Shown here: piece after piece, positions 39,682-56,323 of the stretch
Position numbering within the stretch: the stretch's first letter is position 1
Layout: each line of letters starts with the position of its first letter
Assembly (NCBI RefSeq): GCF_001494635.1
Contig: NZ_LOJF01000001.1
Span: 434,001-498,000, forward strand
Reading direction: 5' to 3'
Length of the DNA stretch: 64,000 bases
DNA from: Tractidigestivibacter scatoligenes
GTDB taxonomy: Bacteria > Actinomycetota > Coriobacteriia > Coriobacteriales > Atopobiaceae
Translations under genes and position numbers: made by a program
The notes under the pieces: generated by a model
The model's input: the letters and a program-made list of their open reading frames with translations, nothing else
Told to the model about the DNA's origin: nothing
Database searches by the model: none

Positions 39682-39718
39682 CACACGAACACGACTAGGG
39701 GAGAACGGAGAGGAACGC

Positions 39719-40660
39719 ATGGGCAAGAGAATCGTCGTCGCACTGGGCGGCAACGCGTTGGGGAAGAACCTGCCAGAGCAGATGGCGGCCGTGAAGCACA
39801 CGTCCAAGGCCATCGTCGACCTTATTGCCGAGGGCAACGAGGTTATCGTGGCGCACGGCAACGGACCGCAGGTGGGCATGATCCAGGAGGCCATGACCCA
39901 GCTCACACGCTCTGATCCCGAGAAGTACATCCCCTGCCCGCTTTCGGTCTGCGTTGCCATGAGCCAGGGCTACATTGGCTACGACCTCCAGAACGCCATC
40001 CGCGAGGAGCTGGCCAACCGCGACATCCACCACGGCGTGACCACGGTGCTCACTCAGGTCGAGGTCGACCCAAACGACCCTGCCTTCGAGCACCCCACCA
40101 AGCCTATTGGTGCCTTCATGACCAAGGAGGAGGCCGACCGTATGGTGGCCGAGCGCGGCTACACGGTGGTCGAGGACTCCGGCCGCGGCTGGCGCCGTGT
40201 GGTCGCAAGCCCCAAGCCCCAGGCCATCGTCGAGCTTGACACCATCCGCTCGCTGGTCGAGGCCGACCACGTGGTTATTGCTTGCGGTGGCGGCGGCATT
40301 CCCGTCTACCACACCGAGGGCCACCACCTGAAGGGCGCTGCTGCCGTCATCGACAAGGACTTTGCCGCAGCCCGCCTTGCCGAGCAGCTTGATGCCGACG
40401 CGCTTGTCATCCTCACGGCCGTCGAGAAGGTCGCCATCCACTTTGGCAAGCCCGACCAGACCGAGCTTGACGAGCTCACGCCCGAGACTGCCCAGCGCTA
40501 TATTGACGCGGGCGAGTTTGCGCCCGGCTCGATGCTGCCCAAGGTCCAGGCGGCGCTGCAGTTTGCACAGTCCGGCTCCGGACGTATGTCGCTCATCACC
40601 GAGCTCGACCGTGCGGCGGACGGTATTGCCGGCAAGACTGGTACCATCGTCCGTGGGTAG
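39719..40660 (+). CDS. arcC: Carbamate kinase
   Basis: A 313-residue amino acid kinase-fold enzyme that transfers phosphate from carbamoyl phosphate to ADP, giving ATP, CO2 and ammonia. It carries VALGGNALGK near the N-terminus, AHGNGPQVG, and CGGGGIPVY and DKD in the nucleotide site. It starts at ATG 39719 behind GGAGAGGAA, not at the upstream TTG-type start. It is the energy-conserving step of the purine pathway and is also found next to ygeW/hyuA in E. coli (yqeA). Confidence 0.93.
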   Translation: MGKRIVVALGGNALGKNLPEQMAAVKHTSKAIVDLIAEGNEVIVAHGNGPQVGMIQEAMTQLTRSDPEKYIPCPLSVCVAMSQGYIGYDLQNAIREELANRDIHHGVTTVLTQVEVDPNDPAFEHPTKPIGAFMTKEEADRMVAERGYTVVEDSGRGWRRVVASPKPQAIVELDTIRSLVEADHVVIACGGGGIPVYHTEGHHLKGAAAVIDKDFAAARLAEQLDADALVILTAVEKVAIHFGKPDQTELDELTPETAQRYIDAGEFAPGSMLPKVQAALQFAQSGSGRMSLITELDRAADGIAGKTGTIVRG

Positions 40661-40701
40661 CATGTAGACATCGCAACGGCAATGCGCACGAGGTGAGGGC
40701 C

Positions 40702-41718
40702 ATGGAACCACGGGTATTCTCGTTCCTCATTGATGAGGATGGCGGGCGCTTCTTTGGCCCGGGTCCCATGGCCCTGCTCGCTGGCGTTCGCGAGACGGGT
40801 AGTCTTTCTGCCTCCGCCAAGGCCATGGACATGAGTTACACCAAGGCCATGCGCATTCTGCATGATGCCGAGCGTGCCCTGGGATGCTCTCTTACCGTGC
40901 GCTCAATTGGTGGCGAAAAGGGCGGGAGCTCGAGCCTTACGCCCGAGGGGGAGGACTTCCTCCATCGCTACGAGGCGTGGCGACAAGGCGTTACCGCTGC
41001 GGCAAACGTGGGCTTCTCGGCAGCGTTTGCCGGCGTTGCTGGGGTGCCCAGGCTGGGCTGCGTGGTCATGGCAAACGGCGAGGCTACGCGCTTTGGCAGG
41101 CAAAAGCTCGTGGAGCCGCTGCGTGGCCGGGCGGTGGTCTCGCACACGCTTGACGCACTGGTGTCACCGCGCCTGGACGTGGTGGTCTCCACAAGGTGGA
41201 ATCGCGTCCGAGCTGTGTGCGAGGCCAGGCATGTGGCCTGCGCGGAGCCTGCGGGGGCGCTCCAGAGCCAGACCGTCCATGCAGGTGTCAAGGCGCTGGG
41301 CACGCGCGCGGGCTACCTCTTTGTGCAGGGCGACCAGCCGCTGCTCTCTGGCGCGAGTGTCGAGGCCCTGCTCGACGAGTTTGCCGCACATCCTGACTGC
41401 GTGGCGCGCCTCGCGTGGCAGGGCAAGCCAGGGAGCCCCGTGATCTTTCCGGGCTACCTGGCAGACGCACTTCTCGGCCTCGAGGGAGACGTGGGTGGAG
41501 GCGAGCTGCTGCGTAGGAATCCAGACCTTGCTGCTGCCACGCGGCTCGTCGAGGCGCGCTACCCGGCCGAGCTAGATGACATTGACACCCCATCCGACCT
41601 CGAGCGGGTTGCCAGCGAGCTGGTGGCTGTGCGCGAGGCCATAGAATCCGGGCAGGACATATGGCCCGCTGCGGGCGAGAAGGACAGCGCCCCCGGCGAG
41701 CTGGGCTCTTCTCTGTAA
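40702..41718 (+). CDS. ModE-like winged helix fused to MocA-type molybdenum cofactor nucleotidyltransferase
   Basis: This 338-residue fusion has two halves. Residues 1-95 form a LysR/ModE-type helix-turn-helix (GSLSASAKAMDMSYTKAMRILHDAERALG, then SSLTPEGEDFLHRYEAW), as in the DNA-binding half of the molybdate regulator ModE. From about 118 a MobA/MocA nucleotidyltransferase follows (VVMANGEATRFGRQKLVEPLRG, FVQGDQPLLS, GSPVIFPG, DIDTPSDLE). MocA adds CMP to molybdopterin to make the cofactor used by xanthine dehydrogenase-family enzymes. The fusion could let cofactor or molybdate status act on transcription, but there is no molybdate-binding domain. It starts at ATG 40702 behind GAGGTGA; a GTG three codons earlier is possible. 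In E. coli the counterpart ygfJ lacks the helix-turn-helix. Confidence 0.85.
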   Translation: MEPRVFSFLIDEDGGRFFGPGPMALLAGVRETGSLSASAKAMDMSYTKAMRILHDAERALGCSLTVRSIGGEKGGSSSLTPEGEDFLHRYEAWRQGVTAAANVGFSAAFAGVAGVPRLGCVVMANGEATRFGRQKLVEPLRGRAVVSHTLDALVSPRLDVVVSTRWNRVRAVCEARHVACAEPAGALQSQTVHAGVKALGTRAGYLFVQGDQPLLSGASVEALLDEFAAHPDCVARLAWQGKPGSPVIFPGYLADALLGLEGDVGGGELLRRNPDLAAATRLVEARYPAELDDIDTPSDLERVASELVAVREAIESGQDIWPAAGEKDSAPGELGSSL

Positions 41719-41730
41719 GGGGATGGTTGT

Positions 41731-43116
41731 ATGGTCGCACAGGCACGCAAGGTCCTGAGGCACGGCCAGCTGGTCACGCCGAAGGGAGTCTTTCTCGGCG
41801 ACGTGGTCATCGAGGGCGCCAAGATCGCGGACGTTGTTCCCGGTGGCGTCGACGAGGCGCAGCTTGCGGACGCTGAGGTCTTCGACGCCACGGGCTGCTG
41901 GGTCTACCCGGGCTTCATTGATGCGCACACACACATGCAGTGCTGGACGGGCATGGACTGGACCGCTGACAGCTTCGAGACGGGCACGCGCGCCGCGGCC
42001 TGCGGCGGTACCACAACCATCGTGGACTACGCCACGCAGGACAAAGGCATGACCCTTCACCAGGCGCTCGACGAGTGGCACAAGCGCGCCGATGGAACCT
42101 GCACGGCTAACTATGCCTTCCACATGGCCATCGCAGACTGGAACGACCATACCCGCGAGGAGATCGCGGACATGCGCGAAGCGGGCATCACTTCGTTCAA
42201 GACGTACTTTGCTTACGATCACCTGCGCCTGGATGATGCCCAGACCATGGAGGTGCTCGAGGCCATCAAGCCCTTCGATGGCATTCTCTGCGTGCACTGC
42301 GAGAACGGCACGCTTGTCAACGAGCTGCAGCGCAGGGTGCTTGCCGAGGGCATCACAGGGCCCGAGGGGCACCCGCTGAGCCGCCCTGCCGAGTGCGAGG
42401 CCGAGGCCATCAGCCGCCTGATGTACCTCTCCGAGCTTACGGGCGCTCGCGTGAACGTGGTGCACTGCTCTACGCGCCTGGGCCTTGAGCAGGTGCGTGC
42501 TGCCCGCGAGCGCGGCGTGCGCGTGTCGCTCGAGACCTGCCCGCAGTACCTGCTGCTGGACGATACCCGCTACCTGGAGCAGGGCGAGGACGGCTTTGCC
42601 GGCGCCAAGTACGTGATGAGCCCGCCGCTGCGCAAGCCCACGGACATCGCGGCGTTGCGCGAGGCCGTGGCAGACGGCGAGGTGGACCAGATCTCGACCG
42701 ACCACTGCTCGTTTAATCTGCATGGCCAGAAGGATCGCGGCCGTGGCGACTTCACCAAGATCCCCAACGGGGGACCTGGCGTTGAGCACAGGCCGGCGCT
42801 CATCATGACAACGTTCGAGGGGCAGCTTGGTCCCATGGACTATCTGCACCTGCTCTCCGAGGGCCAGGCGCGCGTGTTTGGCATGTACCCGCGCAAAGGC
42901 GCGCTTGCCGCTGGCTCCGACGCGGACATCTGCGTGTGGGATCCCTCGGCGCGCTGGACCATCAGCGCGGCCAACCAGCACCAGGCCGTCGACTACACCA
43001 CCTACGAGGGCTTTGAGGCGCACGGGCGCGCCAAGCTCGTCTTTGTGAACGGCACGCTTGCCGTGCGCGACGGCGAGCCCACGGGCGAGAAGCCCGGCCG
43101 CTACGTGGCCCGCTAG
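41731..43116 (+). CDS. hyuA: Dihydropyrimidinase / D-hydantoinase family amidohydrolase
   Basis: This 461-residue cyclic amidohydrolase has metal ligands in DAHTHMQ (H66, H68), the carboxylated lysine K157 in SFKTYFAYD, and later VVHCSTR and STDHCSF. The length and fold match dihydropyrimidinases. In urate/purine breakdown HyuA opens a hydantoin-like ring intermediate. It starts 12 bases after the MocA fusion, behind AAGGGGA, in the same operon. Substrate is inferred from the cluster. Confidence 0.9.
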   Translation: MVAQARKVLRHGQLVTPKGVFLGDVVIEGAKIADVVPGGVDEAQLADAEVFDATGCWVYPGFIDAHTHMQCWTGMDWTADSFETGTRAAACGGTTTIVDYATQDKGMTLHQALDEWHKRADGTCTANYAFHMAIADWNDHTREEIADMREAGITSFKTYFAYDHLRLDDAQTMEVLEAIKPFDGILCVHCENGTLVNELQRRVLAEGITGPEGHPLSRPAECEAEAISRLMYLSELTGARVNVVHCSTRLGLEQVRAARERGVRVSLETCPQYLLLDDTRYLEQGEDGFAGAKYVMSPPLRKPTDIAALREAVADGEVDQISTDHCSFNLHGQKDRGRGDFTKIPNGGPGVEHRPALIMTTFEGQLGPMDYLHLLSEGQARVFGMYPRKGALAAGSDADICVWDPSARWTISAANQHQAVDYTTYEGFEAHGRAKLVFVNGTLAVRDGEPTGEKPGRYVAR

Positions 43117-43217
43117 GGCCGTGCGCGCCGCGGGCAGCGAGCTCCGCGGGTTTCTCGGCCCCGTTTTCTCATCCATAGGTCGTCCGCGTTTGCGGGCAGG
43201 AAGCGAAGGAGTTTCTC

Positions 43218-43598
43218 ATGAGCAAGACCGCCATCGTCACCGATAAGGCCCCCAAGGCGCTTGGCCCCTATTCTGCGGGTGTCGCGTCCAACGGCTCCAT
43301 CAACGTGTCCGGCCAGCTGGGCATCGACCCTGCTACCGGCAAGCTCGCCGGCGACGACATCCAGAGCCAGACCCGCCAGAGCCTGACCAACGTGAAGAAC
43401 ATCCTCGAGGCCGCTGGCGCCTCCATGGCCGACGTGGTCGAGACCACCGTCCTTCTCGCCGACATCAACGAGTTTGGCGCCATGAACGAGATCTACGCCG
43501 AGTTCTTTGAGGCCCCGTATCCCGCGCGTGCGGCGTTCCAGGTGGCTGCGCTCCCCGGTGGCGGCAAGGTCGAGATCAAGGCTGTCGCGAGGGTGTAG
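43218..43598 (+). CDS. ridA: RidA-family enamine/imine deaminase
   Basis: A 126-residue protein of the YjgF/YER057c/UK114 family. It has the conserved GPYSAGV start, QLGIDPATGKL and the C-terminal YPARAAFQVAALPGGGKVEIKAVA with the catalytic arginine. It hydrolyses reactive 2-aminoacrylate. That intermediate is made by YgeX from diaminopropionate, which explains its place at the end of the purine operon. A good terminator follows. Confidence 0.92.
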   Translation: MSKTAIVTDKAPKALGPYSAGVASNGSINVSGQLGIDPATGKLAGDDIQSQTRQSLTNVKNILEAAGASMADVVETTVLLADINEFGAMNEIYAEFFEAPYPARAAFQVAALPGGGKVEIKAVARV

Positions 43599-43894: not shown

Positions 43895-44374
43895 TTAGTC
43901 CTCGTCCTCGTCGTCTTCAATGGAAGAAACGCCCTCGTCTACGCGCTTGGCAATTGCCACTGCATCATTCGAATTGCGTACGAACTCTCTAAAGTCCGGT
44001 TCCATAAGAAGAATGGCAGTTTTAGAGAGAAGCTTAAGATGAGTGGTGCCCGCTTCTGCCTCGGGAACCAAGAGAGCTATTGAGATGTCAACAGGTTTCC
44101 CATCGAAAGACGGCCACTCTAGCGCCTTCTTGGTCTTAAATACAATGACTGATGCATACTTGATTGCTGCCGATTTTGCATGGGGAACGGCAAATCCATC
44201 TTCCATCCCGGTCTCGCACTGGTTTTCGCGCCAGAGAAATGCCTGAAACACTGCCTCTGCGTCATCGGTGATACCAAGCTGCTCTGCACGCTTTGAAATT
44301 GCCTTAAGAACATCGATACGAGAATCCTCGTCCTGGTCCACAAATACGTTCTTGCTGGAAATGAATTCACCCAT
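43895..44374 (-). CDS. PTS EIIA component, fructose/mannitol family
   Basis: A 159-residue EIIA domain with the phosphorylated histidine H65 in DGFAVPHAK and the preceding RENQCETGMEDG. It receives phosphate from HPr and passes it to the EIIB encoded at 47664. The last residues are strongly acidic (SSIEDDEDED), matching the acidic tail of the EIIC encoded at 47999. It is divergent from the DeoR gene, with a 308-bp shared control region. Confidence 0.88.
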   Translation of the reverse strand: MGEFISSKNVFVDQDEDSRIDVLKAISKRAEQLGITDDAEAVFQAFLWRENQCETGMEDGFAVPHAKSAAIKYASVIVFKTKKALEWPSFDGKPVDISIALLVPEAEAGTTHLKLLSKTAILLMEPDFREFVRNSNDAVAIAKRVDEGVSSIEDDEDED

Positions 44375-44682
44375 AGCATGTCTCCAAGGTCACTCTATAT
44401 ACTCCGCCCATAGGACAGAGCTATTAACTGTTCATTCCGATGGTTGCAGGCGAATCGGCGTTTTTCAAAGTAACGGTTCGTACCCTAGAAGTGATGAGAT
44501 GCTTTGAGATGAGCAATAAGGTGAAAGTAATGAAAAAGTCGGTGAAAGAAATAACTCAGAATTATGAAAGCATATCGAAGATAATAATAGAGAATAACAA
44601 AAGAACGTTTGTGTTGCTGCCCGACGACATCATCTGCTGCCAAGACTCCCGAAATTAGTGACCGTAGAGAGAGGAGCTCCGC
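44375..44682. promoter_or_regulatory. Divergent control region between EIIA and DeoR genes
   Basis: No convincing gene. A 72-codon frame at 44440 lacks a good ribosome binding site. The sequence is A/G-rich with repeated TGAAAG/TGAAAA units (44521-44575, e.g. GGTGAAAGTAATGAAAAAG), plausible operators for the DeoR-type regulator. Confidence 0.4.
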
Positions 44683-45486
44683 ATGACTGCAGGAGAAATA
44701 GGTGAGCCGAGAGAGCTTAGGTCTGATGACAGGCGCAAGGCAATGGTCGAGCGCTTAAACGATGGCAACAGAATTACCGTAAAGGAAATGGCCAAAGAAT
44801 TTGGCGTCTCTGAGGTAACGATACGGTCTGATCTTGAAGTTCTTGAGCGGGGAGGAAAGCTCAAACGAGTTCGTGGCGGAGCCGTAATGCTAGACCGTAT
44901 GCGAGATGTTGCCGACATCCAGAGCAGAATGACCATTAATGTTGACAAGAAAAAGGTAATCGCTCAGCTTGCAAACTCATTGGTGTCAGATGGTGACTCA
45001 ATCATCATTGACTCAGGATCGACAGCGTTTGAGTTTGCCAAGACTTTGGTCAACAAGAGGCACATTACCGTGCTTACGCAAGACATCAACACGGCAATGT
45101 TCATAGATTCCGAATTGCCGAGTGCATCTGTGGTGCTGTTGGGGGGAGCCCTTCGGCCTAGACACGGTTATTGTTGGGGGCCCCTGACGATTGGCGTGAT
45201 AAACCAGTTATACGTAGACAAAGCCTTTATTGGCTCAAACGGGTTCTCTCCATCTCAAGGCTTCATGACCGAGAACCCGTATGGGAGTGAAGTGAAGCGA
45301 TCCTTCATAGAGCATGCTCGTCATTCAATCATTCTCATTGATTCGAGCAAAATCGGCATTCATAGCTTTATTAAGTTTGCTGATATCGGCGAAGTTGATC
45401 ATGTGGTAATGGACAGCGATCCTGAGGGTCTTGTATCAAGGGCTGCTAGCACGGTGTATCCTTCGCCAAGCATTTTGCTTCCATAG
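44683..45486 (+). CDS. DeoR-family transcriptional regulator
   Basis: A 267-residue regulator with an N-terminal DeoR helix-turn-helix (RRKAMVERLNDGNRITVKEMAKEFGVSEVTIRSDLEVLE, about 15-55). The C-terminal sugar-phosphate-binding domain has the family motifs DSGSTAFEFAK, TQDINTAMFI, LLGGALRPRHGYCWGPL and DKAFIGSNGFSPSQGFMTENP. It starts behind GAGAGGAG. It very probably represses the PTS and ketose genes around it and is released by a phosphorylated sugar. Confidence 0.92.
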   Translation: MTAGEIGEPRELRSDDRRKAMVERLNDGNRITVKEMAKEFGVSEVTIRSDLEVLERGGKLKRVRGGAVMLDRMRDVADIQSRMTINVDKKKVIAQLANSLVSDGDSIIIDSGSTAFEFAKTLVNKRHITVLTQDINTAMFIDSELPSASVVLLGGALRPRHGYCWGPLTIGVINQLYVDKAFIGSNGFSPSQGFMTENPYGSEVKRSFIEHARHSIILIDSSKIGIHSFIKFADIGEVDHVVMDSDPEGLVSRAASTVYPSPSILLP

Positions 45487-45739
45487 AAACGAAAATACTA
45501 CGCGTCGATGTAAACGCCAATAAATAGCTGGTAAATTGTGCACGGCCAGATTACATCGAAGCTCATCTTTCGAAACTGACGAATATCTACCAGTAACTGC
45601 CGCCTACGACTTACGAAACATTTTCAAACTATTGTGCATTCCTTTCGATATATTGAGTCCAGTTGCAAGCGATACGACGGACACGGTTTCCTAAAGGCGC
45701 GTAAGTAATCTTCAACAGGATGCAAGCGAAAGGGATGCC
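45487..45739. promoter_or_regulatory. Promoter region of the ketose catabolic operon
   Basis: A 253-bp gene-free, AT-rich stretch. It contains the inverted pair TCGATGTAA (45506) / TTACATCGA and at least four CGAAA-type units (ACGAAAA near 45489, TCGAAAC near 45571, ACGAAAC near 45615, CTTTCGAT near 45643), consistent with repeated DeoR-type binding sites before the gene at 45740. Confidence 0.45.
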
Positions 45740-46645
45740 ATGAGAAAGTTTGATTTCGGCGTCGACACCTTTATCTGGAGCGAGGATTTCTCCGAGAAAG
45801 ACCTGTGGGTCATCCGCAAGGCAAGCGATCTTGGATTTCATAGTATTGACTTCGCCGTGGCGCACCCTGACACCTTTCCTGTCCAGGAGGTTGCCGAGGA
45901 GCTTTCAAAGACCGGTCTTACACCCGTAACAACAACCACACTTGGGGCGGACACAAACCCCATCTCGCCTAATCCCGAGGTGAGGGCAGCTGCTGTAGCT
46001 CATATGAAGCGCATGGTGGATATCTCCAAGGCGCTGGGAGCGAAAGTGACCGGGGGCGTGAACTATGCAGGGTGGGGCTACCTCACTGGCAAGATGAAGA
46101 CGCGCCAGGAATGGAACTGGTCCGTTTCCTGCATGCGAGATGTTGCCAACTATGCGCTCGACACCTATCCCGAACTGCGCATTTGCGTAGAGCCTTGCAA
46201 CCGTTTCGAGACGCACTTCCTCAACACCGCGGTGGAGGCGGTCGAGTACTGCAAGGCTGTGGGTACCCCTAATATGGGGGTGCACCTCGATTGTTTCCAT
46301 ATGTCTCACGAGGAAAGCAACTGGACTGATCCAGTCTTCACGTGCGGTAAGCAGTGGCTTGGTTACGTGCATGTCAACGAGAACCAACGCGGAATCCCTG
46401 GTACCGGCATGGTTAACTTTCATGCGTTCTTTAACGCACTGGAAGATATCGACTACGAAGGACATTGCGTCATCGAGTCCTTTGACCCGAACTTCGAGGA
46501 GCTGTCGCGCAACTGCGCTATCTGGAGGCGTTTTGCTCCGACGGGTGAGGAGCTTGCAGTTAAGGGTCTCGCGAATCTGCGCCGCATTGCAGATGAGGTA
46601 GATTCCCGCAGGGATTCCCAGCTTGATCTCCAACTGGCTGATTAG
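45740..46645 (+). CDS. Ketose (phosphate) 3-epimerase-like TIM-barrel protein
   Basis: A 301-residue sugar isomerase/epimerase of the D-tagatose/psicose 3-epimerase family. The metal-binding residues are visible in order: VEPCNRFETHF (Glu), VHLDCFHM (Asp/His), YVHVNENQRGIPGTG (His) and VIESFDP (Glu). Related proteins epimerise free ketoses or tetrulose phosphates (LerI/EryC-like). It heads the operon with aldolase and PTS genes. The mixture of a PTS and a DhaK-type kinase leaves its substrate open. Confidence 0.85.
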   Translation: MRKFDFGVDTFIWSEDFSEKDLWVIRKASDLGFHSIDFAVAHPDTFPVQEVAEELSKTGLTPVTTTTLGADTNPISPNPEVRAAAVAHMKRMVDISKALGAKVTGGVNYAGWGYLTGKMKTRQEWNWSVSCMRDVANYALDTYPELRICVEPCNRFETHFLNTAVEAVEYCKAVGTPNMGVHLDCFHMSHEESNWTDPVFTCGKQWLGYVHVNENQRGIPGTGMVNFHAFFNALEDIDYEGHCVIESFDPNFEELSRNCAIWRRFAPTGEELAVKGLANLRRIADEVDSRRDSQLDLQLAD

Positions 46646-46743
46646 GCGCATTTTCGATATGTGGCATCACTTGGCAGAGCGAATTTGCCTGCCAATTAAT
46701 GACGTGTGGGCCTAGTGCACCCACCCAACGAGAGGAGACATCA

Positions 46744-47601
46744 ATGCTTGTTAACATGACTCAGATTCTGAAGGACGCCGAGGCAGGCGGCTATGCCATT
46801 GGCTGCATCAACACCCCCAACCTTGAGACGATTCGCGGGGTCCTCGCCGCAGCGGAAGAGGTTAACGTCCCCATCATCATCGATCACGCTCAGGTCCATG
46901 ATGAGAACGGCATCAAGGTCGAGGTTATTGGGCCCCTGATGGTGGAGTATGCTAAGAAGGCAAAGGTTCCCGTCTGCGTTCACGTTGACCACGGCTCTGA
47001 CTTCTCCTTCATCATCCGCTGCCTGCGCGCCGGCTTCTCCTCGGTCATGTATGACCTCTCTGCGCTTCCCTACGAGCAGAACCTTTCCAAGGTCAAGGAG
47101 TTTACTGAGTATGCCCACAAGGCAGGCATCTCTGTGGAGGCAGAGCTTGGCATCATGACTCTCGCTATGGGTGAGGGCTGGACACACGAGACGATCAAGA
47201 CCACCTTCACTGATCCTCAGCAGGCTGCGGATTTCGCTGAGCGCTCTGGCGTTGATGCCCTCGCAGTCTGCTTTGGCACTGCCCATGGTATCTATGCCGA
47301 GCCGCCTGTTCTGGATATCCAGCGCGTTCGCGACATCCGTGCGGCCATGCCAGACACGACTCGCGTTGTTATGCACGGCGGCTCCGGCGTTGATGAGAAG
47401 CAGGTCCAGGAGGCCATCACCGCTGGCGTCTCCAAGCTCAACTACTACAGCTATCTGGGCATGGCTGCCACCGAAAACATGGCGAAGATGCTGAGCGGCG
47501 AAGGTCGCCAGCGCCAGTGGCACGAGAACCAGGAGGCGCAGGTCGACTTCATCAAGGAGTATGCAAAGCACGTGCTCACCGTATTCAAGAACGGCAAGTA
47601 G
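46744..47601 (+). CDS. Class II ketose-bisphosphate aldolase family protein
   Basis: A 285-residue zinc aldolase of the FbaA/GatY/KbaY group: VHVDHGSDF (zinc His and catalytic Asp), EAELGIM, FGTAHGIY and MHGGSGV are all present. The region after the last motif reads GVSKLNYYSYLGMAA, where most members have K(I/V)N-(I/V)-x-T; the departure hints at a non-standard substrate. The start ATG 46744 follows GAGAGGAGA. It should split a ketose phosphate into two trioses or a triose and smaller fragment. Confidence 0.86.
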   Translation: MLVNMTQILKDAEAGGYAIGCINTPNLETIRGVLAAAEEVNVPIIIDHAQVHDENGIKVEVIGPLMVEYAKKAKVPVCVHVDHGSDFSFIIRCLRAGFSSVMYDLSALPYEQNLSKVKEFTEYAHKAGISVEAELGIMTLAMGEGWTHETIKTTFTDPQQAADFAERSGVDALAVCFGTAHGIYAEPPVLDIQRVRDIRAAMPDTTRVVMHGGSGVDEKQVQEAITAGVSKLNYYSYLGMAATENMAKMLSGEGRQRQWHENQEAQVDFIKEYAKHVLTVFKNGK

Positions 47602-47663
47602 CCTTCGAGGTTTGAACACGACGACAGCTCGTGCCGGCCGGGCTGTCATTTTGGGAGGGGAAC

Positions 47664-47957
47664 ATGTACGTCATAGGAGTGACTTCGTGTGCGACAGGCA
47701 TAGCTCACACGTATATGGCAGCAAATGCAATTCGCAAGGCGTGCAAGAAGCGCGGCTATAAGGTCAAGGTCGAGACGCAAGGCGCAGTTGGAGTCGAGCA
47801 CCGCCTAACCGAAGAGAACATCAAGGCGGCAGACTTAATCGTCTTTGCGAACGATGTCCAGATTACTGACATGGGGCGCTTCAAGGGGTACGAGGACAAG
47901 ATCAAGCGTATTACGCCTGATGGAGTAATTCGTAACCCCGATTCAATTTTTGATTAA
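47664..47957 (+). CDS. PTS EIIB component, fructose family
   Basis: This 97-residue EIIB has the phosphorylated cysteine C9 in VTSCATGIAHTYMAA, the classical fructose EIIB signature. It takes phosphate from the EIIA encoded at 43895 and phosphorylates the sugar bound by the EIIC encoded 41 bases downstream. The start ATG 47664 follows GGGAGGGG. Confidence 0.92.
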   Translation: MYVIGVTSCATGIAHTYMAANAIRKACKKRGYKVKVETQGAVGVEHRLTEENIKAADLIVFANDVQITDMGRFKGYEDKIKRITPDGVIRNPDSIFD

Positions 47958-47998
47958 ATAGAGCATTTTGTTGTGAGCCACAGCAAAGGAGAGAGAAC

Positions 47999-49111
47999 AT
48001 GGCATCAGAGAAGCAGAGTGTCGGGCGCCAAATCCAAAGCGCCCTGCTCACCGGCGTTTCCTACATGCTTCCGTTTGTCATTGGCGGCGGCATCCTTATT
48101 GCACTTGGATTCTTGTTCGGAACATATCAGGTCCCCAGCGTTGAGCCCTACGGATCTACGTTTGCGTCGACGGTGTTCTGGCTCGGCAAGGGCGCGTTCA
48201 GCTACATGGTGCCAATAGTTGCCGCCTTCATCGCCTATGGAATAGCTGACAAACCGGCTATCGCGGTTGGTATGCTCGGCGGGTTCCTTGCCGGCGATCC
48301 TTGGGGTGTTGGCCAGGCGTCTGGTTTCATCGGTGGCATCATCGCCGGTATTCTCGCTGGATACATTGTCCTGCTCCTCAAGAAGATCAAGCTTCCCAAG
48401 GGCTTTGAATCTATCGTTCCCACCCTCATCATCCCGGTAGTTGGCATGCTAATTGAGGGCTGCCTCATGTTCTACGTGATTGGGGCTCCCCTTTCTGCCC
48501 TGACCGCTGCACTCACCAATTGGCTGAACGGTCTCGCCGGAGGCTCTGCAGTGCTCCTCGGAATTGTCCAGGGCTGCATGCTTGCATTCGATATGGGCGG
48601 AACCGTAAACAAGGTTGCCTATGCCTTCGCCCTTGCCGCAATGGATGCCAACAACTTCGCTCCTATGGCTGCAAACTTCATTGGTTCGATGACTCCGCCC
48701 CTCGGCATTGCGATTGCCGTTCTGATTAGCAACAAGATGGGGCTGCACAAGTGGAACGCGGAAGAGAAGAGTTCCGGCAGCATCATCGGTCTGTTCACTG
48801 GCGCCATTGCAATGGTTACCGAGTACGCTATCCCCTATGCCGTAGCCGACCCCCTGCGCGTAATTCCCGCTCTTATGGCCGGTTCCGCAACTGGCTGCGC
48901 ACTCTCGTATGCCTTTGGCCTCACCATGATGGCTCCCCATGGTGGCCTGTTCGTTCTCTTCGCTCTTAACAACGTGCCCCTGTTCCTCCTCGCACTCATC
49001 ATTGGCGCGCTTGTTACGACGGTGCTCCTTCTGGCACTCAAGAAGAAGGTCGATCCTGAGGATGAGGTTGAGTACCTCGATGATGACGACGAGGACGATG
49101 ACGAGGAGTAG
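47999..49111 (+). CDS. PTS EIIC component, fructose family
   Basis: A 370-residue membrane transporter with about nine helices. It begins LLTGVSYMLPFVIGGGILIALGF, typical of fructose EIIC, and includes LAFDMGGTVNKVAYAF, which contains the conserved sugar-site GG(P)xNK-type motif, here GGTVNK. A long acidic tail (EDEVEYLDDDDEDDDEE) ends the chain, echoing the EIIA tail. The split of EIIA, EIIB and EIIC over three genes, with EIIA divergent, is unusual for a fructose system, where they are commonly fused. Confidence 0.9.
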   Translation: MASEKQSVGRQIQSALLTGVSYMLPFVIGGGILIALGFLFGTYQVPSVEPYGSTFASTVFWLGKGAFSYMVPIVAAFIAYGIADKPAIAVGMLGGFLAGDPWGVGQASGFIGGIIAGILAGYIVLLLKKIKLPKGFESIVPTLIIPVVGMLIEGCLMFYVIGAPLSALTAALTNWLNGLAGGSAVLLGIVQGCMLAFDMGGTVNKVAYAFALAAMDANNFAPMAANFIGSMTPPLGIAIAVLISNKMGLHKWNAEEKSSGSIIGLFTGAIAMVTEYAIPYAVADPLRVIPALMAGSATGCALSYAFGLTMMAPHGGLFVLFALNNVPLFLLALIIGALVTTVLLLALKKKVDPEDEVEYLDDDDEDDDEE

Positions 49112-49181
49112 ACGCTAGCACTCTGAAACGTTCTATCTCCCTCAGGTTGTAGTCAAAATAGTCAACGAAAGAAGTAGTGAT

Positions 49182-50096
49182 ATGGCAAAGCTTGCAGATA
49201 TTCTCGAGCACTTCCCGTTTGACCCCGACAAGAAGGCTCCCACGCTTATCCGACAGCAGGACTATTCGACGGCGCTCTATCCGCCAAACGATGCCTCCAC
49301 CTCTGACAACACGTTTACAATCATCTCCACCGATACCTTTATGCTGGGAATCTACGAGCTGGCACCTGGATCGTGCTTCATGCCGCTCGATATCCACCCC
49401 GGGGATGAGTCTTACTACATCCTGGATGGCCCCGTCATTCAGCGTAGCGGCAACGGACAGTTCGTATGGCTTGATACCGGCGATGGCCTGTGCATGCCGA
49501 AGGGCGCCTGGCACAGTGGCCACAACTTTACCGACCACAAGACGCGCATTCTGTACTTCATTGCGCCCAAGGCTTGGAGCAAGGACATTCCGCCCGCAGT
49601 GATTCCCTCCGACGAGGAGACCAAGTACTACAAGGGCAAGAACAATGACAACCTGCCCGATATGCGTGGAGCAATCGCGGGGCTTGGTCGTCCGGCCTGC
49701 ACCGATGACATCGGCCACTTCCCAGCCGAGGGCGAAGAAATGCGCAAGACTGGCGCAATCTACGCAGTGCACAATTATGACAAGCTAAACAACATTCACG
49801 GTACCAAGCATCCCATGCTGCTCCGTTTCATTACGAGCAATGACTTCGGAAACTTTGGCGAGATGATCCTTCCTGCGGGAGGGTTTGGACCTCGTTATTC
49901 TGAGCCAGATAAGCATGAAGGCGATGGTTGCCTGTACTGCGTGGATGGCCCCATCACAGTGAACCTTAACGAGCTTGAGGAAAGCTTCGTACTTCAAGAG
50001 GGCGATACGTTCTTCTTGCCTGCGGGGACCTCGTATCAGCTTGTGAATTTTGAAGCTAAGCCTGTAAAGGCAGTATTTGGAATTACCAAGCTCTAA
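49182..50096 (+). CDS. Double-cupin protein, possible sugar isomerase or sugar-binding enzyme
   Basis: A 304-residue protein with two cupin folds. The first (about 50-130) has PLDIHPGDESYYILDGPV and GDGLCMPKGAWHSGHN, where H, E and H could bind a metal. The second (about 210-300) has GPRYSEPDKHEGDGCLYCVDGP and EGDTFFLPAGTSYQLVN, with a more degenerate site. I know no exact function. Cupin enzymes include sugar isomerases and epimerases, so it could convert the imported sugar. It lies between PTS and RpiB-like genes. Confidence 0.7.
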   Translation: MAKLADILEHFPFDPDKKAPTLIRQQDYSTALYPPNDASTSDNTFTIISTDTFMLGIYELAPGSCFMPLDIHPGDESYYILDGPVIQRSGNGQFVWLDTGDGLCMPKGAWHSGHNFTDHKTRILYFIAPKAWSKDIPPAVIPSDEETKYYKGKNNDNLPDMRGAIAGLGRPACTDDIGHFPAEGEEMRKTGAIYAVHNYDKLNNIHGTKHPMLLRFITSNDFGNFGEMILPAGGFGPRYSEPDKHEGDGCLYCVDGPITVNLNELEESFVLQEGDTFFLPAGTSYQLVNFEAKPVKAVFGITKL

Positions 50097-50154
50097 CAGT
50101 TGGTTCAGACGGGGATGCGGATGCATCCCCGTCGTTTCTGAGGGGGGTGTCGCG

Positions 50155-50616
50155 ATGAAGATTGCGATTGGGAGCGATGAGGCTGGGTTCAGCCTGAAGG
50201 AACAGCTGAAGGGCTACCTCACATCGAAGGGGCAGGAAATCATCGACGTTGGGTGCTACTCTACCGACCCCGTCCTGTATCCCGATATTGCAGAGGCTGC
50301 CTGCGAGAAGATAGTATCCGGGGAGGCCGAGCGTGCTGTGCTCGTCTGCGGCACGGGAATCGGAATGGCAATTACAGCCAACAAGATTCCGGGCATTCGG
50401 GCAGCCGTGGGACATGACGCCTACTCAGTCGAGCGCAGTGTGTGCAGCAACGACTGCCAAGTCATTACCTTCGGCGCAAGGATTGTCTCGTATGTGTACG
50501 TGACTAGGATGCTTGACGAGTGGCTTGGGCTCGAGTTTGCAGGGGGCGGCAGCGCACCCAAGGTCAGGGAGATAGCAGAGGTCGAGAGCCGGCACGCGGG
50601 GGAGGCGGTGCGGTAA
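50155..50616 (+). CDS. RpiB/LacAB-family sugar-phosphate isomerase
   Basis: A 153-residue isomerase: GSDEAGFSLKE at the N-terminus, YPDIAEAACEKI, VLVCGTGIGMAITANKIPGIRAA with the catalytic cysteine (CGTG), and SNDCQVITFGAR. Family members interconvert aldose and ketose phosphates of four to six carbons (RpiB, LacAB, DerI/EryI). With the epimerase and the DhaKL-type kinase it resembles the erythrulose-phosphate set. The start ATG 50155 follows GGGGGGTG. The gene overlaps the next by one base (TAATG). Confidence 0.88.
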   Translation: MKIAIGSDEAGFSLKEQLKGYLTSKGQEIIDVGCYSTDPVLYPDIAEAACEKIVSGEAERAVLVCGTGIGMAITANKIPGIRAAVGHDAYSVERSVCSNDCQVITFGARIVSYVYVTRMLDEWLGLEFAGGGSAPKVREIAEVESRHAGEAVR

Positions 50617-51620
50617 TGCAACGAGTGATCAACGATCCGGATATGCTCGTGGAGGACATGCTGCCCGGCTTTCTTGAGGCGAACAAGTCGCTGGTACATG
50701 CCTCGAGTGAAAATCCGAGGACGGTTGTCTCGAATTTTGTCGGCCAGGGCGCTCCGCGTGTTGGTATTGTCTCCGGTGGCGGTTCGGGCCACTGGCCAGC
50801 GTTCATCGGCTACTGCGGACAGAACATGGTAGATGCGGTTGCTGTCGGTGAGATTTTCTCGTCTCCGACGGCTAAGGCATTCGAGCAGTGCATCCGCGAG
50901 GCGGACAGTGGCAAGGGCGTGGCAGTTCTCTACGGCAACTACGCTGGTGACAACATGAACGTGAAGATGGCGCTGCGCCGCGTGGAGAAGGAGGGTATCC
51001 ACGTCGCGACTGTGGTGGCGAACGACGATGTCGCGTCAGCCCCCTCCGACCAGCGCGACAGGCGCAGGGGCGTCGCGGGCGAGGTCCTCATGTGGAAGTG
51101 CGGTGGCGCTCGCGCCGCAATGGGTGGCAGCCTTGAAGAGGTTATTGCTTGCGCTCAGAAGGCAATCGATAACACGCGCTCCATTGGAATTGGTCTCTCT
51201 CCCTGCACCATTCCCTCGTACGGCAAGCCGAACTTCTCGATTGAGCCCGGATCTATGGAGGTAGGCATTGGCCACCACGGAGAGCCAGGCATCAAAGTCG
51301 AGCCCCTGAAGGATGCCAACGGCATGGCGGACGAGATGGTCGAGGCGGTATGCTCCGACCTTCCATTTGGGAGTGGGGATGACGTAGTTGTTCTCATTTC
51401 TGGTTTGGGCGCCACTCCGGTGATGGAGCAGTACATCCTTTCAGCAAGAGTTTTCTCGGACCTGAAGGATCGCGGTATTTCAGTGTACAAGTCTTACGTG
51501 GGCAATTGGTTTACCTCGCTTGAGATGGGAGGGGTGACGCTCACTCTCATGAAGCTAGATGACGAGCTGAGGGAGTGTGTGGACTTTTCAGTGAACACTC
51601 CTGCCCTAGTGCAGCTCTAG
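50616..51620 (+). CDS. DhaK-type kinase subunit (dihydroxyacetone or erythrulose kinase)
   Basis: A 334-residue DhaK fold. The substrate histidine that forms the hemiaminal with the ketone is in GIGHHGEPG (H221). The SGGGSGHWPAF motif carries Trp where most DhaK proteins have Glu-Pro-Ala (SGGGSGHEPA), a change next to the substrate pocket. It should bind a short ketose (dihydroxyacetone, erythrulose or a related compound). The ATP-binding DhaL partner follows. It starts in the TAATG overlap with the isomerase gene. Confidence 0.88.
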   Translation: MQRVINDPDMLVEDMLPGFLEANKSLVHASSENPRTVVSNFVGQGAPRVGIVSGGGSGHWPAFIGYCGQNMVDAVAVGEIFSSPTAKAFEQCIREADSGKGVAVLYGNYAGDNMNVKMALRRVEKEGIHVATVVANDDVASAPSDQRDRRRGVAGEVLMWKCGGARAAMGGSLEEVIACAQKAIDNTRSIGIGLSPCTIPSYGKPNFSIEPGSMEVGIGHHGEPGIKVEPLKDANGMADEMVEAVCSDLPFGSGDDVVVLISGLGATPVMEQYILSARVFSDLKDRGISVYKSYVGNWFTSLEMGGVTLTLMKLDDELRECVDFSVNTPALVQL

Positions 51621-51654
51621 GCCGTTGCCATTCGATTGATTGGTGGTGGGACGA

Positions 51655-52299
51655 ATGTCCGAGAAGTTTTCGAACGCGGGCAGCGCTGACATCGTGCTCG
51701 CCCTGTGCGCCGCAATCCACGAGAGTAAAGACTACCTCAGCGAAGTGGATGGAGCCATCGGAGATGGTGACCACGGCGTGAACATGAATAAGGGCTTTAC
51801 ACTTGCCAGCCAGCGCATCGACGCGAGCTCATCGTTCTCAGATGCTCTTGAAGTGCTCGCGGATACTCTAGTGGATGACATCGGCGGTTCGATGGGGCCA
51901 ATCTACGGAACTTTCTTCATGAGTCTTTCAGAGAACCTCTCGTCTTCTGATGAGATTAATGCTAAGGAGTTTGGTAATTCTCTCGCAGACGCTGCACAAG
52001 CGCTTGAGGACCTTGCCGGAGCCAGGCCCGGCGACAAGACGCTAGTGGACGTGGCGGTGCCCGCAAGTGAAGCATTCCAGGCCGCAGAGCAGAGGGGCGA
52101 TGGCTTCTCGTCTTGCCTCTCTGCAATGGCAGAGGCTTCCGAGGCAGGTTGGAAGAGCACGGAGGGCATGCAGGCTCGGCTCGGTCGCGCAGCTAGGCTG
52201 GGGGAGCGTAGCATCGGTCATCTCGATGCGGGTGCCACCTCTTGCAATGTGATTCTGCAGACCATGGCGAAGGAAATCTCTGCAAAGCTTCAAGGCTAG
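51655..52299 (+). CDS. DhaL-type ATP-binding kinase subunit
   Basis: A 214-residue DhaL domain with the Mg-nucleotide site DGAIGDGDHGVNMNKG (the three Asp ligands) and later DDIGGSMGPIYGTFF and GARPGDKTLVDV. It phosphorylates the ketose held by DhaK, using ATP if free or acting with a PTS protein DhaM in other systems; no DhaM is present, so ATP is likely. The ATG at 51655 is chosen over the TTG at 51640. It is the last gene of the ketose operon. Confidence 0.9.
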   Translation: MSEKFSNAGSADIVLALCAAIHESKDYLSEVDGAIGDGDHGVNMNKGFTLASQRIDASSSFSDALEVLADTLVDDIGGSMGPIYGTFFMSLSENLSSSDEINAKEFGNSLADAAQALEDLAGARPGDKTLVDVAVPASEAFQAAEQRGDGFSSCLSAMAEASEAGWKSTEGMQARLGRAARLGERSIGHLDAGATSCNVILQTMAKEISAKLQG

Positions 52300-53310: not shown

Positions 53311-54018
53311 CTACACCCGCTCCAGGCGGTGCTCGCGCACGGAGCCGGCAGCGACGGGCGTCTCGTCCCCGCACGCGCGCAGCTCGGCGGCAAACCGCAC
53401 GGCAAGCTCAATGCCGGCCTGGTCATCGGCCTGGTTCACCACGATGTCGTCCGCGCGCACCACGCCAGCCGCGTGCTCTGCAGCAACAAAGCGCGCGTAC
53501 AGCTCGGGCGTGCACTCGTCGCTCGCGGAGCAGCCCACGGCTGCGCACATGAGCTCCGGCCGATGCACAACTTCGCCCACGCACCCGCCAAACCCCGATG
53601 CTCCCACCACCTGGATGGTCTGGCTGCTCTCGGCCGGAACCACGGGCTCGTGTGCAGCGTGTGCCTTGTGGGGCAGTCTGCGTGCGCCATCGGCCTCTAC
53701 CAGCACGCGGTCGGCAAGCACGGCGAGCGTGCCAAAGCCAAGCGACGGCGCGCACAGCTTTCCGGCGGCTCCCTCCGCGCCCGGTGCGCGAGTCCCCACA
53801 CAGACAACGCGGGTGTACCAGAGCGCCTGCTCAACGTCGAGCTCCGTAGCGTCAAGCAAGAGCGGACAGCCCTCGGGCGCCAGCATATGCGTGGACGTGG
53901 TGATGACCACGGTGCATCCCAGTTCGCGTGCCAGCTCGTTCACGAGGGTTGACTTGCCCCCGCTCCCAACCACTGATAGAACGCCGCTATCCGTTCGCAG
54001 CAAATCCGCAAGATTCAT
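53311..54018 (-). CDS. yqeC: Selenium-dependent molybdenum hydroxylase accessory protein YqeC
   Basis: A 235-residue P-loop protein with Walker A GSGGKSTLVN at the N-terminus, ITTSTHM, VEADGARRLPHKAHAAHEPVVP and VVNQADD, the pattern of the YqeC family. YqeC occurs only in genomes with selenium-dependent molybdenum hydroxylases and is thought to help insert or activate the labile selenium. It is divergent from yedF, with two GAGACAAAGGGA palindromes in the shared 217-bp gap. Confidence 0.9.
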   Translation of the reverse strand: MNLADLLRTDSGVLSVVGSGGKSTLVNELARELGCTVVITTSTHMLAPEGCPLLLDATELDVEQALWYTRVVCVGTRAPGAEGAAGKLCAPSLGFGTLAVLADRVLVEADGARRLPHKAHAAHEPVVPAESSQTIQVVGASGFGGCVGEVVHRPELMCAAVGCSASDECTPELYARFVAAEHAAGVVRADDIVVNQADDQAGIELAVRFAAELRACGDETPVAAGSVREHRLERV

Positions 54019-54050
54019 GAGGAACCCTTACAAAAAGTCATATGCTCTAA

Positions 54051-54144
54051 TGAGACCAGGGGACAGTCCCTTTGTCTCACAAAGGGAGTTTCCCTTGCCC
54101 CATAGCATACCGGATGAGACAAAGGGACTGTCCCTTTGTCTCAT
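54051..54144. repeat. GAGACAAAGGGA palindromes, copies 3 and 4
   Basis: A slightly degenerate copy at 54051-54079 (arms TGAGACCAGGGGA and TCCCTTTGTCTCA) and a perfect one at 54114-54144 lie between divergent yqeC and yedF. A third partial unit, TTTGTCTCACAAAGGGAGTT, overlaps the first. Confidence 0.85.
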
Positions 54145-54235
54145 TTCGGCCCAACGTTATACACTCGTGTGGTTAACGCCCGACGTCGCCTGACATCAGT
54201 CGCAGCGCTCCGCCGGCAAACAGATTGGAGTCACC

Positions 54236-54847
54236 ATGAAGATCGATGCACGCAACCTCACCTGCCCCAAGCCCGTCGTGCTCACGCTGGAGGCTCTGCC
54301 CAAGCTCGCAGCCGGCGAGTCTCTCGAGGTCGTTGTCAACGACTCTGTTGCCCTGGGTAACCTCACGCGTCTGGCGGCTGAGAAGAACTGCGACCTCACT
54401 ACTACCGCATCTGGTGACGAGACCACCCTTACCCTCACCCCGCGCGGTGAGGTGAGCGCTTCCGAGAATGCCGCCTCCGAGGCTCAAGCCTTCTGCGACC
54501 TGCCTGCTACCGGTGCCTCCGTCATTGCCGTGGACACCGACACCATGGGTCGCGGTGACGAGAAGCTCGGCCACATCCTCATGAAGGGGCTCATCTACGC
54601 CCTGGCGCACGGCGAGTCCGTTCCCAAGAAGATGATCTTCTTCAACGGCGGCGCGCACCTTACCTGCGAGGGCTCGGAGTCGCTCGAGGACATCAAGGAG
54701 CTCGAGAGCCGCGGTACGCAGATCCTCACCTGCGGCACCTGCCTGGACTTCTACGGTATTCGCGAGAAGCTCGCCGTGGGCGGCGTGACCAACCTGTACG
54801 AGATTGCCAAGGTCATGGCGGGCGAGCCGGGTGTTACCACCCTGTAG
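54236..54847 (+). CDS. yedF: Selenium metabolism protein YedF
   Basis: A 203-residue protein whose N-terminal domain is TusA-like with the CPxP motif (LTCPKPVV, C10) and whose C-terminal domain is DsrE-like, with FNGGAHLTCEGSESLEDIKEL and TCGTCLDFYG. This two-domain YedF form travels with selD and YqeB/YqeC and probably hands selenium (as a persulfide-like selenide) to cofactor maturation. It starts behind GGAGTC and is the first gene of a six-gene selenium operon. Confidence 0.9.
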   Translation: MKIDARNLTCPKPVVLTLEALPKLAAGESLEVVVNDSVALGNLTRLAAEKNCDLTTTASGDETTLTLTPRGEVSASENAASEAQAFCDLPATGASVIAVDTDTMGRGDEKLGHILMKGLIYALAHGESVPKKMIFFNGGAHLTCEGSESLEDIKELESRGTQILTCGTCLDFYGIREKLAVGGVTNLYEIAKVMAGEPGVTTL

Positions 54848-54863
54848 CGACAAGGCCTGCACC

Positions 54864-56063
54864 ATGATTTACCTCAACTGCGCCGCCACGTCGTACCAGC
54901 GTCCCGAGTGCGTGATTGACGCCGTCGCGGACGCCCTGCGCACCTTTGGCTCGTGCGGCCGCGGCGCCCACGAGTCCGAGCTTGCCGCGGCTCGCTCCAT
55001 CGCCCTTGCGCGGGAGCGGGTCTCGGCCCTTCTCGGCTTTGGCCACCCCGAGCGGCTAGTCTTTGCCGCCAACGCTACCGAGGCGCTCAACATGGCCATC
55101 CTGGGCACGGTGCCTGATGGCGGGCGCGTGGTGGCAACGGACTGGGACCACAACTCGATCCTGCGGCCGCTCTACCGCCTTAGGGACGAGAGGGGCGTGA
55201 CCCTGAGCTTCGCGGCAGCAGACCGCCGCGGCGTGCTTGACATAGACGCCCTGGTAAACGCTATCGTGCCTGGTACGAGCCTCGTGTGCCTCACGCATGC
55301 CTCGAACCTCACGGGCAACGTCCTCTCACGCGAGGAGCTGGCGCGCGTGGTTAAGGCGGCGCATGGCGTGGGGGCGCCGGTGCTTCTCGACTGCGCGCAG
55401 ACGGCGGGTGCTCGCCCCATCTGCATGGACGAGCTGGGCATTGACCTCGTGGCCTTCACGGGGCACAAGGCCCTCATGGGGCCGCAGGGCACGGGCGGCC
55501 TTGCCGTGGCGCCTGGCGTGGACGTTCACCCGGTGCTGCGCGGCGGCACGGGCGTGCTCTCCTTCGAGGAGGGCCAGCCCGCGGGCTACCCCGAGCACCT
55601 GGAGGCAGGCACGCTCAACGGCCATGGCATCGCGGGCCTCTCGGCTGCGGCGGCATGGATCGCCGAGAAGGGCCTCGACACCATCCACGCGCACGACCTC
55701 GCGCTTGTGAGGCGTTTCGTGACGGGTGTGCGCCGTGTGGGCGCCACGATCTATGGCAACTTCCCGGCAACGGAGGAGGGGCTTCTCGCCCCCGGCTTTG
55801 ACCACGCGCCGGTGGTGAGCGTGAACCTGCCGGGCTGGGATTCCTCCGAGGTTGCGGATGCCCTTGGGCATGACTACGACATCGCCGTGCGCGCGGGCGG
55901 CCACTGCGCGCCGCGCATGCACCGGGCGCTGGGGACGCAGGACTCGGGTGCGGTGCGCTTCTCGTTTGGGTGCTTTACCACCGAGGAGGACGTGGACGCG
56001 GCGCTTACCGCCCTGGCCGAGCTGGCCGCAGAGGGGGAGGGCGACGACGATGTCACGTCATAG
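54864..56063 (+). CDS. Cysteine desulfurase / selenocysteine lyase family protein
   Basis: A 399-residue class V PLP aminotransferase. The PLP lysine is K202 in FTGHKALMGPQGTGGL. The reactive cysteine is C348 in RAGGHCAPRMH, in the position of the SufS/CsdA catalytic cysteine. It releases sulfur or selenium from (seleno)cysteine, and between yedF and selD selenium mobilisation is the likely role. The start ATG 54864 lies 16 bases after yedF. The next gene starts 14 bases before this one stops. Confidence 0.9.
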   Translation: MIYLNCAATSYQRPECVIDAVADALRTFGSCGRGAHESELAAARSIALARERVSALLGFGHPERLVFAANATEALNMAILGTVPDGGRVVATDWDHNSILRPLYRLRDERGVTLSFAAADRRGVLDIDALVNAIVPGTSLVCLTHASNLTGNVLSREELARVVKAAHGVGAPVLLDCAQTAGARPICMDELGIDLVAFTGHKALMGPQGTGGLAVAPGVDVHPVLRGGTGVLSFEEGQPAGYPEHLEAGTLNGHGIAGLSAAAAWIAEKGLDTIHAHDLALVRRFVTGVRRVGATIYGNFPATEEGLLAPGFDHAPVVSVNLPGWDSSEVADALGHDYDIAVRAGGHCAPRMHRALGTQDSGAVRFSFGCFTTEEDVDAALTALAELAAEGEGDDDVTS

Positions 56064-56289
56064 GCGCGAGCCACGCGTTGTTGCGTCGTTTGACTCGACG
56101 CACGAGGCGCTGGCCTGCGAGGCTGCCTGCAAGGAGGCGGGCGTCGCGGGAAGGATTATCCCAACGCCCGTGAGCATCCGCGCGGACTGCGGGCTTGCCT
56201 GGTCCATGCCGCCGGAGGTGCGCGGTGACTTCGAGCGGCTCGCAAAGGGCCGCTTTGCCTGCGCTGGATTGTACGAGCTAGAACTCTAG
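56050..56289 (+). CDS. Small DUF3343-type protein of the selenium operon
   Basis: A 79-residue protein: VVASFDSTHEALACEAACKEAGVAGRIIPTPVSIRADCGLAWSMP. The conserved ADCGLAW cysteine and the overall pattern match the DUF3343 family, which is found next to YedF and cysteine desulfurase genes. The conserved cysteine suggests it accepts or carries sulfur or selenium. The ATG 56050 overlaps the end of the desulfurase gene by 14 bases. Confidence 0.8.
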   Translation: MSRHRREPRVVASFDSTHEALACEAACKEAGVAGRIIPTPVSIRADCGLAWSMPPEVRGDFERLAKGRFACAGLYELEL

Positions 56290-56323
56290 GGGCGTCTGCT
56301 CCTAGTTGGACGGAGGGGGAGAC

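Follow-up and report, generated by a model that had tools for sequence, protein, structure and literature searches.

Positions 43895-52299 of the 64,000-nucleotide stretch of Tractidigestivibacter scatoligenes DNA analysed here (the window; contig NZ_LOJF01000001.1, positions 434,001 to 498,000) carry a ten-gene set encoding the IIA, IIB and IIC components of a fructose-family phosphotransferase system (PTS), a DeoR-family regulator, a ketose 3-epimerase, a class II aldolase, a bicupin, an RpiB-family isomerase and the kinase subunits DhaK and DhaL. This operon is most likely a new combination of known enzyme families. Residues of the isomerase and, less strongly, of the kinase make a C4 half of the route, running from erythrulose to erythrose 4-phosphate (E4P), highly probable, while we regard the complete chain from a C7 heptulose 1-phosphate as evenly balanced between right and wrong.

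In the proposed route, a long-chain ketose, in the simplest case a C7 heptulose, would be imported by IIABC as its 1-phosphate and cleaved by the class II aldolase into dihydroxyacetone phosphate (DHAP) and an unphosphorylated tetrose. The bicupin would then convert the tetrose to erythrulose, the epimerase would turn L-erythrulose into D-erythrulose, DhaKL would phosphorylate the latter with ATP to D-erythrulose 4-phosphate and RpiB would isomerize this product to E4P, such that the route would end in two central intermediates. Because a C7 ketose 1-phosphate would be split and only one of its pieces would be phosphorylated, the presence of a PTS together with a second kinase would be no paradox; the model uses each gene once and so accounts for this pairing. 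The C7 chain length, the bicupin reaction and the L-configuration of the tetrose are what we infer from this scheme. One candidate sugar is L-galacto-heptulose (perseulose), which on paper would have an L-threose half under FBA-type stereochemistry.

Gene content and conservation of the operon

All gene families were assigned by Pfam matches above curated cut-offs, and each family named in an earlier note on this DNA was present. The features, with refined starts for the aldolase, IIB, RpiB, DhaK and DhaL genes, are as follows.

43895..44374, minus strand: PTS IIA, fructose family (PF00359 and TIGR00848, above cut-off)
44683..45486, plus strand: DeoR-family regulator (PF00455/PF08220)
45740..46645, plus strand: ketose 3-epimerase, TIM barrel, proposed to convert L-erythrulose to D-erythrulose (PF01261, AP_endonuc_2)
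46744..47601, plus strand: class II aldolase, proposed ketose-1-phosphate substrate (PF01116, F_bP_aldolase)
47664..47957, plus strand: PTS IIB, fructose family (PTS_IIB; TIGR00829 above cut-off)
47999..49111, plus strand: PTS IIC, fructose family (PTS_EIIC; TIGR01427 above cut-off)
49182..50096, plus strand: bicupin, proposed aldose-ketose isomerase (tetrose to erythrulose; Cupin_2, two stretches)
50155..50616, plus strand: RpiB-family isomerase (LacAB_rpiB; catalytic Cys kept; E10, S99, S134, K137)
50616..51620, plus strand: DhaK-type kinase subunit, proposed D-erythrulose 4-kinase (PF02733, Dak1)
51655..52299, plus strand: DhaL, ATP-binding kinase subunit (PF02734, Dak2; TIGR02365 above cut-off)

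Eight of these genes (45740-52299) run in one direction with intergenic gaps of at most about 100 nt. The DeoR gene lies 5' of this run, across a gap of 253 nt, and the IIA gene is divergent from the rest. No convincing promoter, terminator or operator repeat was recognized around 45.5-45.7 kb.

With the bicupin alone as bait, we detected 20 loci besides the window in Coriobacteriales, Erysipelotrichaceae and Lachnospiraceae (13 from a species-level genome collection, one from Lachnospiraceae and six from later family and order scans). All 20 contain aldolase and PTS genes. The aldolase, IIA and IIB were found in 21/21 loci, as was IIC wherever the contig continues far enough; DhaKL was present in all but two loci, whose contigs end, and the epimerase in 18 of the 21. 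Gene order varies, from epimerase-aldolase-IIABC-bicupin-RpiB-DhaKL at L010 to aldolase-bicupin-HAD-epimerase-RpiB-DhaKL-IIABC at L111, and this constancy of content despite shuffled order across the 21 loci indicates that the gene set serves one function. The association is far beyond chance. The bicupin is the best conserved protein of the set, with 70-86% identity across phyla within the set versus about 44% or less for other bicupins, a clean gap. The gene set is rare and patchily distributed, with bicupin carriers amounting to 4/395 genomes in the order of the window (this one included), 7/272 in the family of Merdibacter and 0/7 among the congeners examined. Longicatena caecimuris, Merdibacter massiliensis and Anaerostipes butyraticus are among the carriers that can be cultured.

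Substrate signatures of the aldolase, isomerase and kinase

We aligned 15 operon aldolases with FbaA, GatY, KbaY and YdjI of Escherichia coli (FbaA numbering without Met). Ser61 is replaced by Ala and Arg331 by His in all 15, and the DPR motif, which binds the distal phosphate in Fba, GatY and KbaY, is replaced by QWH/YHE, again in 15/15. All 15 sequences do retain the histidines that bind zinc, the catalytic Asp and the DHAP-phosphate site (GGSG/N..S). We take Ser61 and Arg331 to be the residues that recognize bisphosphate substrates, with Arg331 contacting the distal phosphate. YdjI, annotated in E. coli as an L-glycero-L-galacto-octuluronate-1-phosphate aldolase, likewise lacks equivalents of both. 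Loss of these residues as in YdjI suggests that the operon aldolase should cleave a ketose 1-phosphate and not a bisphosphate, and the predicted substrate is what a fructose-type PTS makes. As the DHAP-phosphate site is kept, the C3 product of cleavage should be DHAP. Loss of the DPR motif speaks against a ketose-bisphosphate aldolase of the Fba/GatY/KbaY type. Elsewhere in the genome (L071; contig 1, 113.5-124 kb), a second fructose-family IIBC is accompanied by a regulator resembling GntR and by a class II aldolase (39% to the operon enzyme). In this aldolase, too, the DPR motif is missing, and NYFT stands in place of NYYS. The fetched stretch showed no sugar kinase, and L071 is possibly another ketose-1-phosphate PTS/aldolase pair.

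The RpiB proteins of the operons carry Ser99 and Ser134, keep the catalytic Cys66 and have a residue other than His at position 10 (Glu in the window and the main operon type, Pro in the L009/L012 variant). In characterized RpiBs, His99 (E. coli numbering; His102) opens the furanose ring (PMC4783025, PMC3212906). A 4-phosphorylated tetrulose cannot form such a ring, and loss of the ring-opening His therefore makes sense. The Ser99/Ser134 signature was present in 6/6 independent loci of erythrulose-phosphate type and 0/8 RpiBs without such a context, a contrast that carries no formal probability as the rows are partly related. The six are the Rhizobium leguminosarum erythritol locus, a Roseibium erythritol-type locus, the oiaX (apionate-type) locus, a Rhizobium TPI/fba/tkt locus, the Pasteurella multocida DhaKL-TPI-tal-tkt locus and the Salmonella DhaKL-rpiB-tal locus; two of these and four of the eight comparison RpiBs were fetched after the signature had been defined. 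For a Coccidioides immitis RpiB structure with the same Asp/Ser/Ser/Lys set, the authors suspected shorter-chain substrates (PMC3212906). The host genome encodes a separate canonical RpiB with both His residues. Together, the residues support a C4 substrate, an erythrulose phosphate, for the operon RpiB.

All operon DhaKs have Gly in place of the dihydroxyacetone (DHA)-binding Lys104 of E. coli DhaK and keep His56, Asp109 and His218. The same K104G change occurs in DhaK relatives of Salmonella (rpiB/tal cluster), Rhizobium etli and Roseibium, and the main operon DhaK type groups with these DhaKs of other sugar clusters. This pattern points to a C4 substrate, less strongly than the RpiB residues do; the departure at position 104 as a mark of erythrulose kinases is drawn from gene context and not from comparison with a characterized LerK or DerK sequence. 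The operon DhaK is the sole Dak1 protein in the host genome, which argues against the operon being a spare locus for DHA kinase. DhaM is absent from the operon, as the earlier note had stated, although no genome-wide search for DhaM was made. Gly at 104 and the absence of DhaM from the operon speak against a DhaKLM-type DHA kinase.

These residues refine the idea put forward in the earlier note, in which a ketose phosphate made by the PTS is cleaved by the aldolase and DhaKL phosphorylates the second product. Both parts probably hold, with a tetrulose as the likely kinase substrate. Of the two products that the note named as alternatives, DHA is not supported, as the DhaK and RpiB residues point to C4 and not C3, and the kept DHAP-phosphate site points to DHAP as the C3 product.

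A DhaKL cluster was also observed on a Salmonella plasmid (L035; IncI1 by MOB-suite) with tal, rpiB, two dehydrogenases and an MFS transporter, and is likely to serve tetritol or erythrulose catabolism.

The epimerase, its replacement and the bicupin

The product of 45740..46645 is nearest to D-psicose/tagatose 3-epimerases, is also related to L-ribulose 3-epimerases and keeps the Glu/Asp/His/Glu metal-catalytic set (motifs VEPCNRFET, HLDCFHM, YVHVNEN and VIESF), as expected of a predicted ketose 3-epimerase. EryC was rejected as its identity, since there is no clear similarity to EryC of R. leguminosarum.

Three Lachnospiraceae loci (L009, L012 and L020) lack the epimerase; two of the genomes have no detectable relative of it and the third only one at 28%. 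Their DhaK and RpiB belong to another subtype (with the L020 RpiB about 10 kb further upstream), and a triosephosphate isomerase (TPI) paralogue lies beside the bicupin. This TPI falls in one group with EryH from the erythritol locus and with the TPIs of the oiaX and P. multocida loci, apart from the canonical TpiAs that the same genomes encode. The product of LerK, L-erythrulose 1-phosphate, is converted to E4P via LerI and DerI (PMC10733421). An epimerase plus a D-erythrulose kinase would reach the same end as LerK-LerI-DerI, and both versions of the operon would therefore start most simply from L-erythrulose. In these same three loci, the part of the operon between IIC and the bicupin also holds genes for an HPr-like protein and enzyme I, and the PTS there may have its own phosphoryl chain.

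Assignment of the bicupin proceeds by elimination: the route needs an enzyme that turns the tetrose into erythrulose, and the bicupin is the protein left for this step, as a putative aldose-ketose isomerase. Some weak support is added by split relatives (41-44%) that adjoin araD and ribulokinase on rhizobial plasmids, where no other isomerase is listed. Comparison with solved structures yielded no specific relative by sequence, and a predicted model of moderate confidence (predicted local distance difference test score, 67) matched bicupins of every function, such that both routes to identification returned generic bicupins only. There was no match to a characterized cupin sugar isomerase of the L-ribose/D-lyxose isomerase type, either by sequence or among the listed fold matches of that moderate-confidence model. 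The rhizobial operon (L033, 10489-18939, and L034) comprises a dipeptidase, two single-cupin genes, a ribose-type ABC transporter, AraD and ribulokinase, and its cupin pair may be a new pentose isomerase.

Weighing the heptulose route against alternatives

Several observations weigh against the heptulose route. Two NCBIfam models, for D-psicose 3-epimerase and for DerI, were matched below their cut-offs (a score of 134 against 240 bits rejects membership in the subfamily but not the function), and the bicupin has no characterized close relative. The exchange of epimerase for a LerI-type TPI probably happened a single time, in related Lachnospiraceae, and counts once, and the TPI gene is convergent to the bicupin rather than co-directional. 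RpiB was not found within the fetched stretch of L017 and L018. Finally, an HAD phosphatase that has no role in the model adjoins the operon in about eleven loci, and a YggP-like dehydrogenase that does not fit lies directly downstream in two Anaerostipes loci.

Among the alternatives, the one that survives best, though still unlikely, is that two linked modules are merely co-regulated, with the PTS and aldolase handling one ketose 1-phosphate and the epimerase, bicupin, DhaKL and RpiB handling erythrulose or tetroses that arrive otherwise. Other bacteria (Salmonella, R. etli and P. multocida) do combine DhaKL with RpiB, a TIM-barrel protein or both in the absence of PTS and aldolase; however, the aldolase, PTS and bicupin are together in 21/21 loci and the conserved set has no second transporter. 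Less probable again is a Hers-type hexulose route, in which a ketohexose 1-phosphate would give DHAP and glyceraldehyde, the bicupin/epimerase would yield DHA and DhaKL would phosphorylate the triose. Proteins of the DHA-kinase family act on trioses and the aldolase residues are compatible with a hexulose 1-phosphate, but this route has no need for RpiB or a LerI-type TPI, and both K104G in DhaK and the His-less RpiB point to C4. We rate slightly lower a branched or other C4/C5 substrate, such as an apiulose-like sugar, that is split differently. In its favour, the apiulose kinase AplK belongs to the DhaK family, the oiaX apionate-type locus has an RpiB of matching signature and a split transketolase lies downstream at L013; yet the transketolase pair occurs in just 1 of the 21 loci and the published oiaX pathway itself passes through erythrulose phosphates.

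The two remaining readings are very improbable. In one, an erythrulose PTS would be paired with an aldolase that cleaves erythrulose 1-phosphate and sets formaldehyde free (EC 4.1.2.2, cleavage direction). This reaction has been described, and several DHAP aldolases of E. coli carried it out in the synthetic direction (PMC10733421), but the reading would make DhaKL redundant and release formaldehyde with no formaldehyde enzyme in the set. The other, a standard operon for uptake of fructose or tagatose plus accessory genes, would suit the fructose-family IIABC and FBA-family aldolase but is rejected because the operon has no 1-phosphofructokinase or tagatose-6-phosphate kinase, its aldolase lacks the bisphosphate site and both a fruKA-type operon (L070: IIBC, IIA and a PfkB-type, 1-phosphofructokinase-like kinase) and a lacAB/tagatose-type locus exist elsewhere in the genome; simple fructose uptake, the role with which the earlier note contrasted its proposal, does not hold.

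Comparison with known systems

With the pathways for erythritol, threitol and erythrulose (EryABCHI of Brucella/Rhizobium, LerK-LerI-DerI and DerK-DerI), the operon shares a DhaK-type kinase, an RpiB-type isomerase and, as proposed, convergence on D-erythrulose 4-phosphate and E4P. The likeness to LerI/DerI/LerK noted earlier is real: the operon RpiB and that of the R. leguminosarum ery locus both have Ser99/Ser134 and have lost His10, and three orthologous loci use a TPI of the EryH/LerI clade, as those pathways do. Unlike the erythritol and threitol pathways, no polyol dehydrogenase or erythritol kinase/EryB was found in the operon, which instead adds a PTS, an aldolase, a bicupin and a 3-epimerase of free-sugar type, and would obtain its erythrulose by aldol cleavage.

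The E. coli ydj cluster also has a class II aldolase without Ser61/Arg331 and a long ketose-1-phosphate substrate (annotated for YdjI, predicted here), whereas it contains a sugar kinase and YdjE/YdjK-type transporters and neither a PTS nor an erythrulose module. A fructose-family IIABC and a class II FBA-family aldolase are common to fruKA and PTS-tagatose/galactitol systems, but the operon lacks 1-phosphofructokinase or LacC, has lost the distal phosphate site of the aldolase and has C4 enzymes added. Finally, the P. multocida DhaKL-TIM-RpiB-TPI-tal-tkt cluster (L051) shares DhaKL and an RpiB about 50% identical with the same signature, and is likewise tied to E4P-consuming enzymes; its TIM-barrel protein is unrelated in sequence to the operon epimerase, and TRAP transporters and PdxA stand where the operon has a PTS and aldolase.

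In the literature searched, we found no description of a heptulose or erythrulose PTS or of this gene set, in keeping with the earlier statement that no described pathway has exactly this set. There is somewhat less than an even chance that the findings amount to a new heptulose pathway of gut and oral anaerobes. In it, the sugar would enter through the PTS as heptulose 1-phosphate and be cleaved to DHAP plus an L-tetrose; bicupins forming a new family of tetrose isomerases, L/D-erythrulose epimerization and DerK/DerI reactions would salvage the tetrose to E4P, with two interchangeable versions of this C4 salvage. If true, rare sugars would have a new way into the pentose phosphate pathway of gut anaerobes, a highly conserved, so far uncharacterized bicupin family would gain a function, and His versus Ser at position 99 would sort likely erythrulose-phosphate isomerases from genes annotated as ribose-5-phosphate isomerase B.

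Regulators and flanking genes

Orthologues of the DeoR regulator are present in three coriobacterial loci; in the Firmicutes loci its place is taken by a PRD-type regulator whose C-terminal domain is IIA-like. The window IIA, which compares at 47-48% with the IIAs of L008, L016 and L019, is inverted relative to the other coriobacterial loci, whose IIA runs in the same direction as DeoR. HAD phosphatases of two different subfamilies recur at L010, L011, L013, L014, L015, L016, L019 and L108-L111.

On both sides of the operon (39650-43598 and 53311-57130) lie genes that belong to an island of the selenium-dependent molybdenum hydroxylase type. One flank encodes carbamate kinase, dihydropyrimidinase, a RidA-like protein and a protein whose C-terminal domain resembles a molybdenum-cofactor cytidylyltransferase (below model cut-off); the other encodes YqeC, YedF, YqeB and a member of the cysteine desulfurase family. 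The sugar operon may be an insertion into this island.

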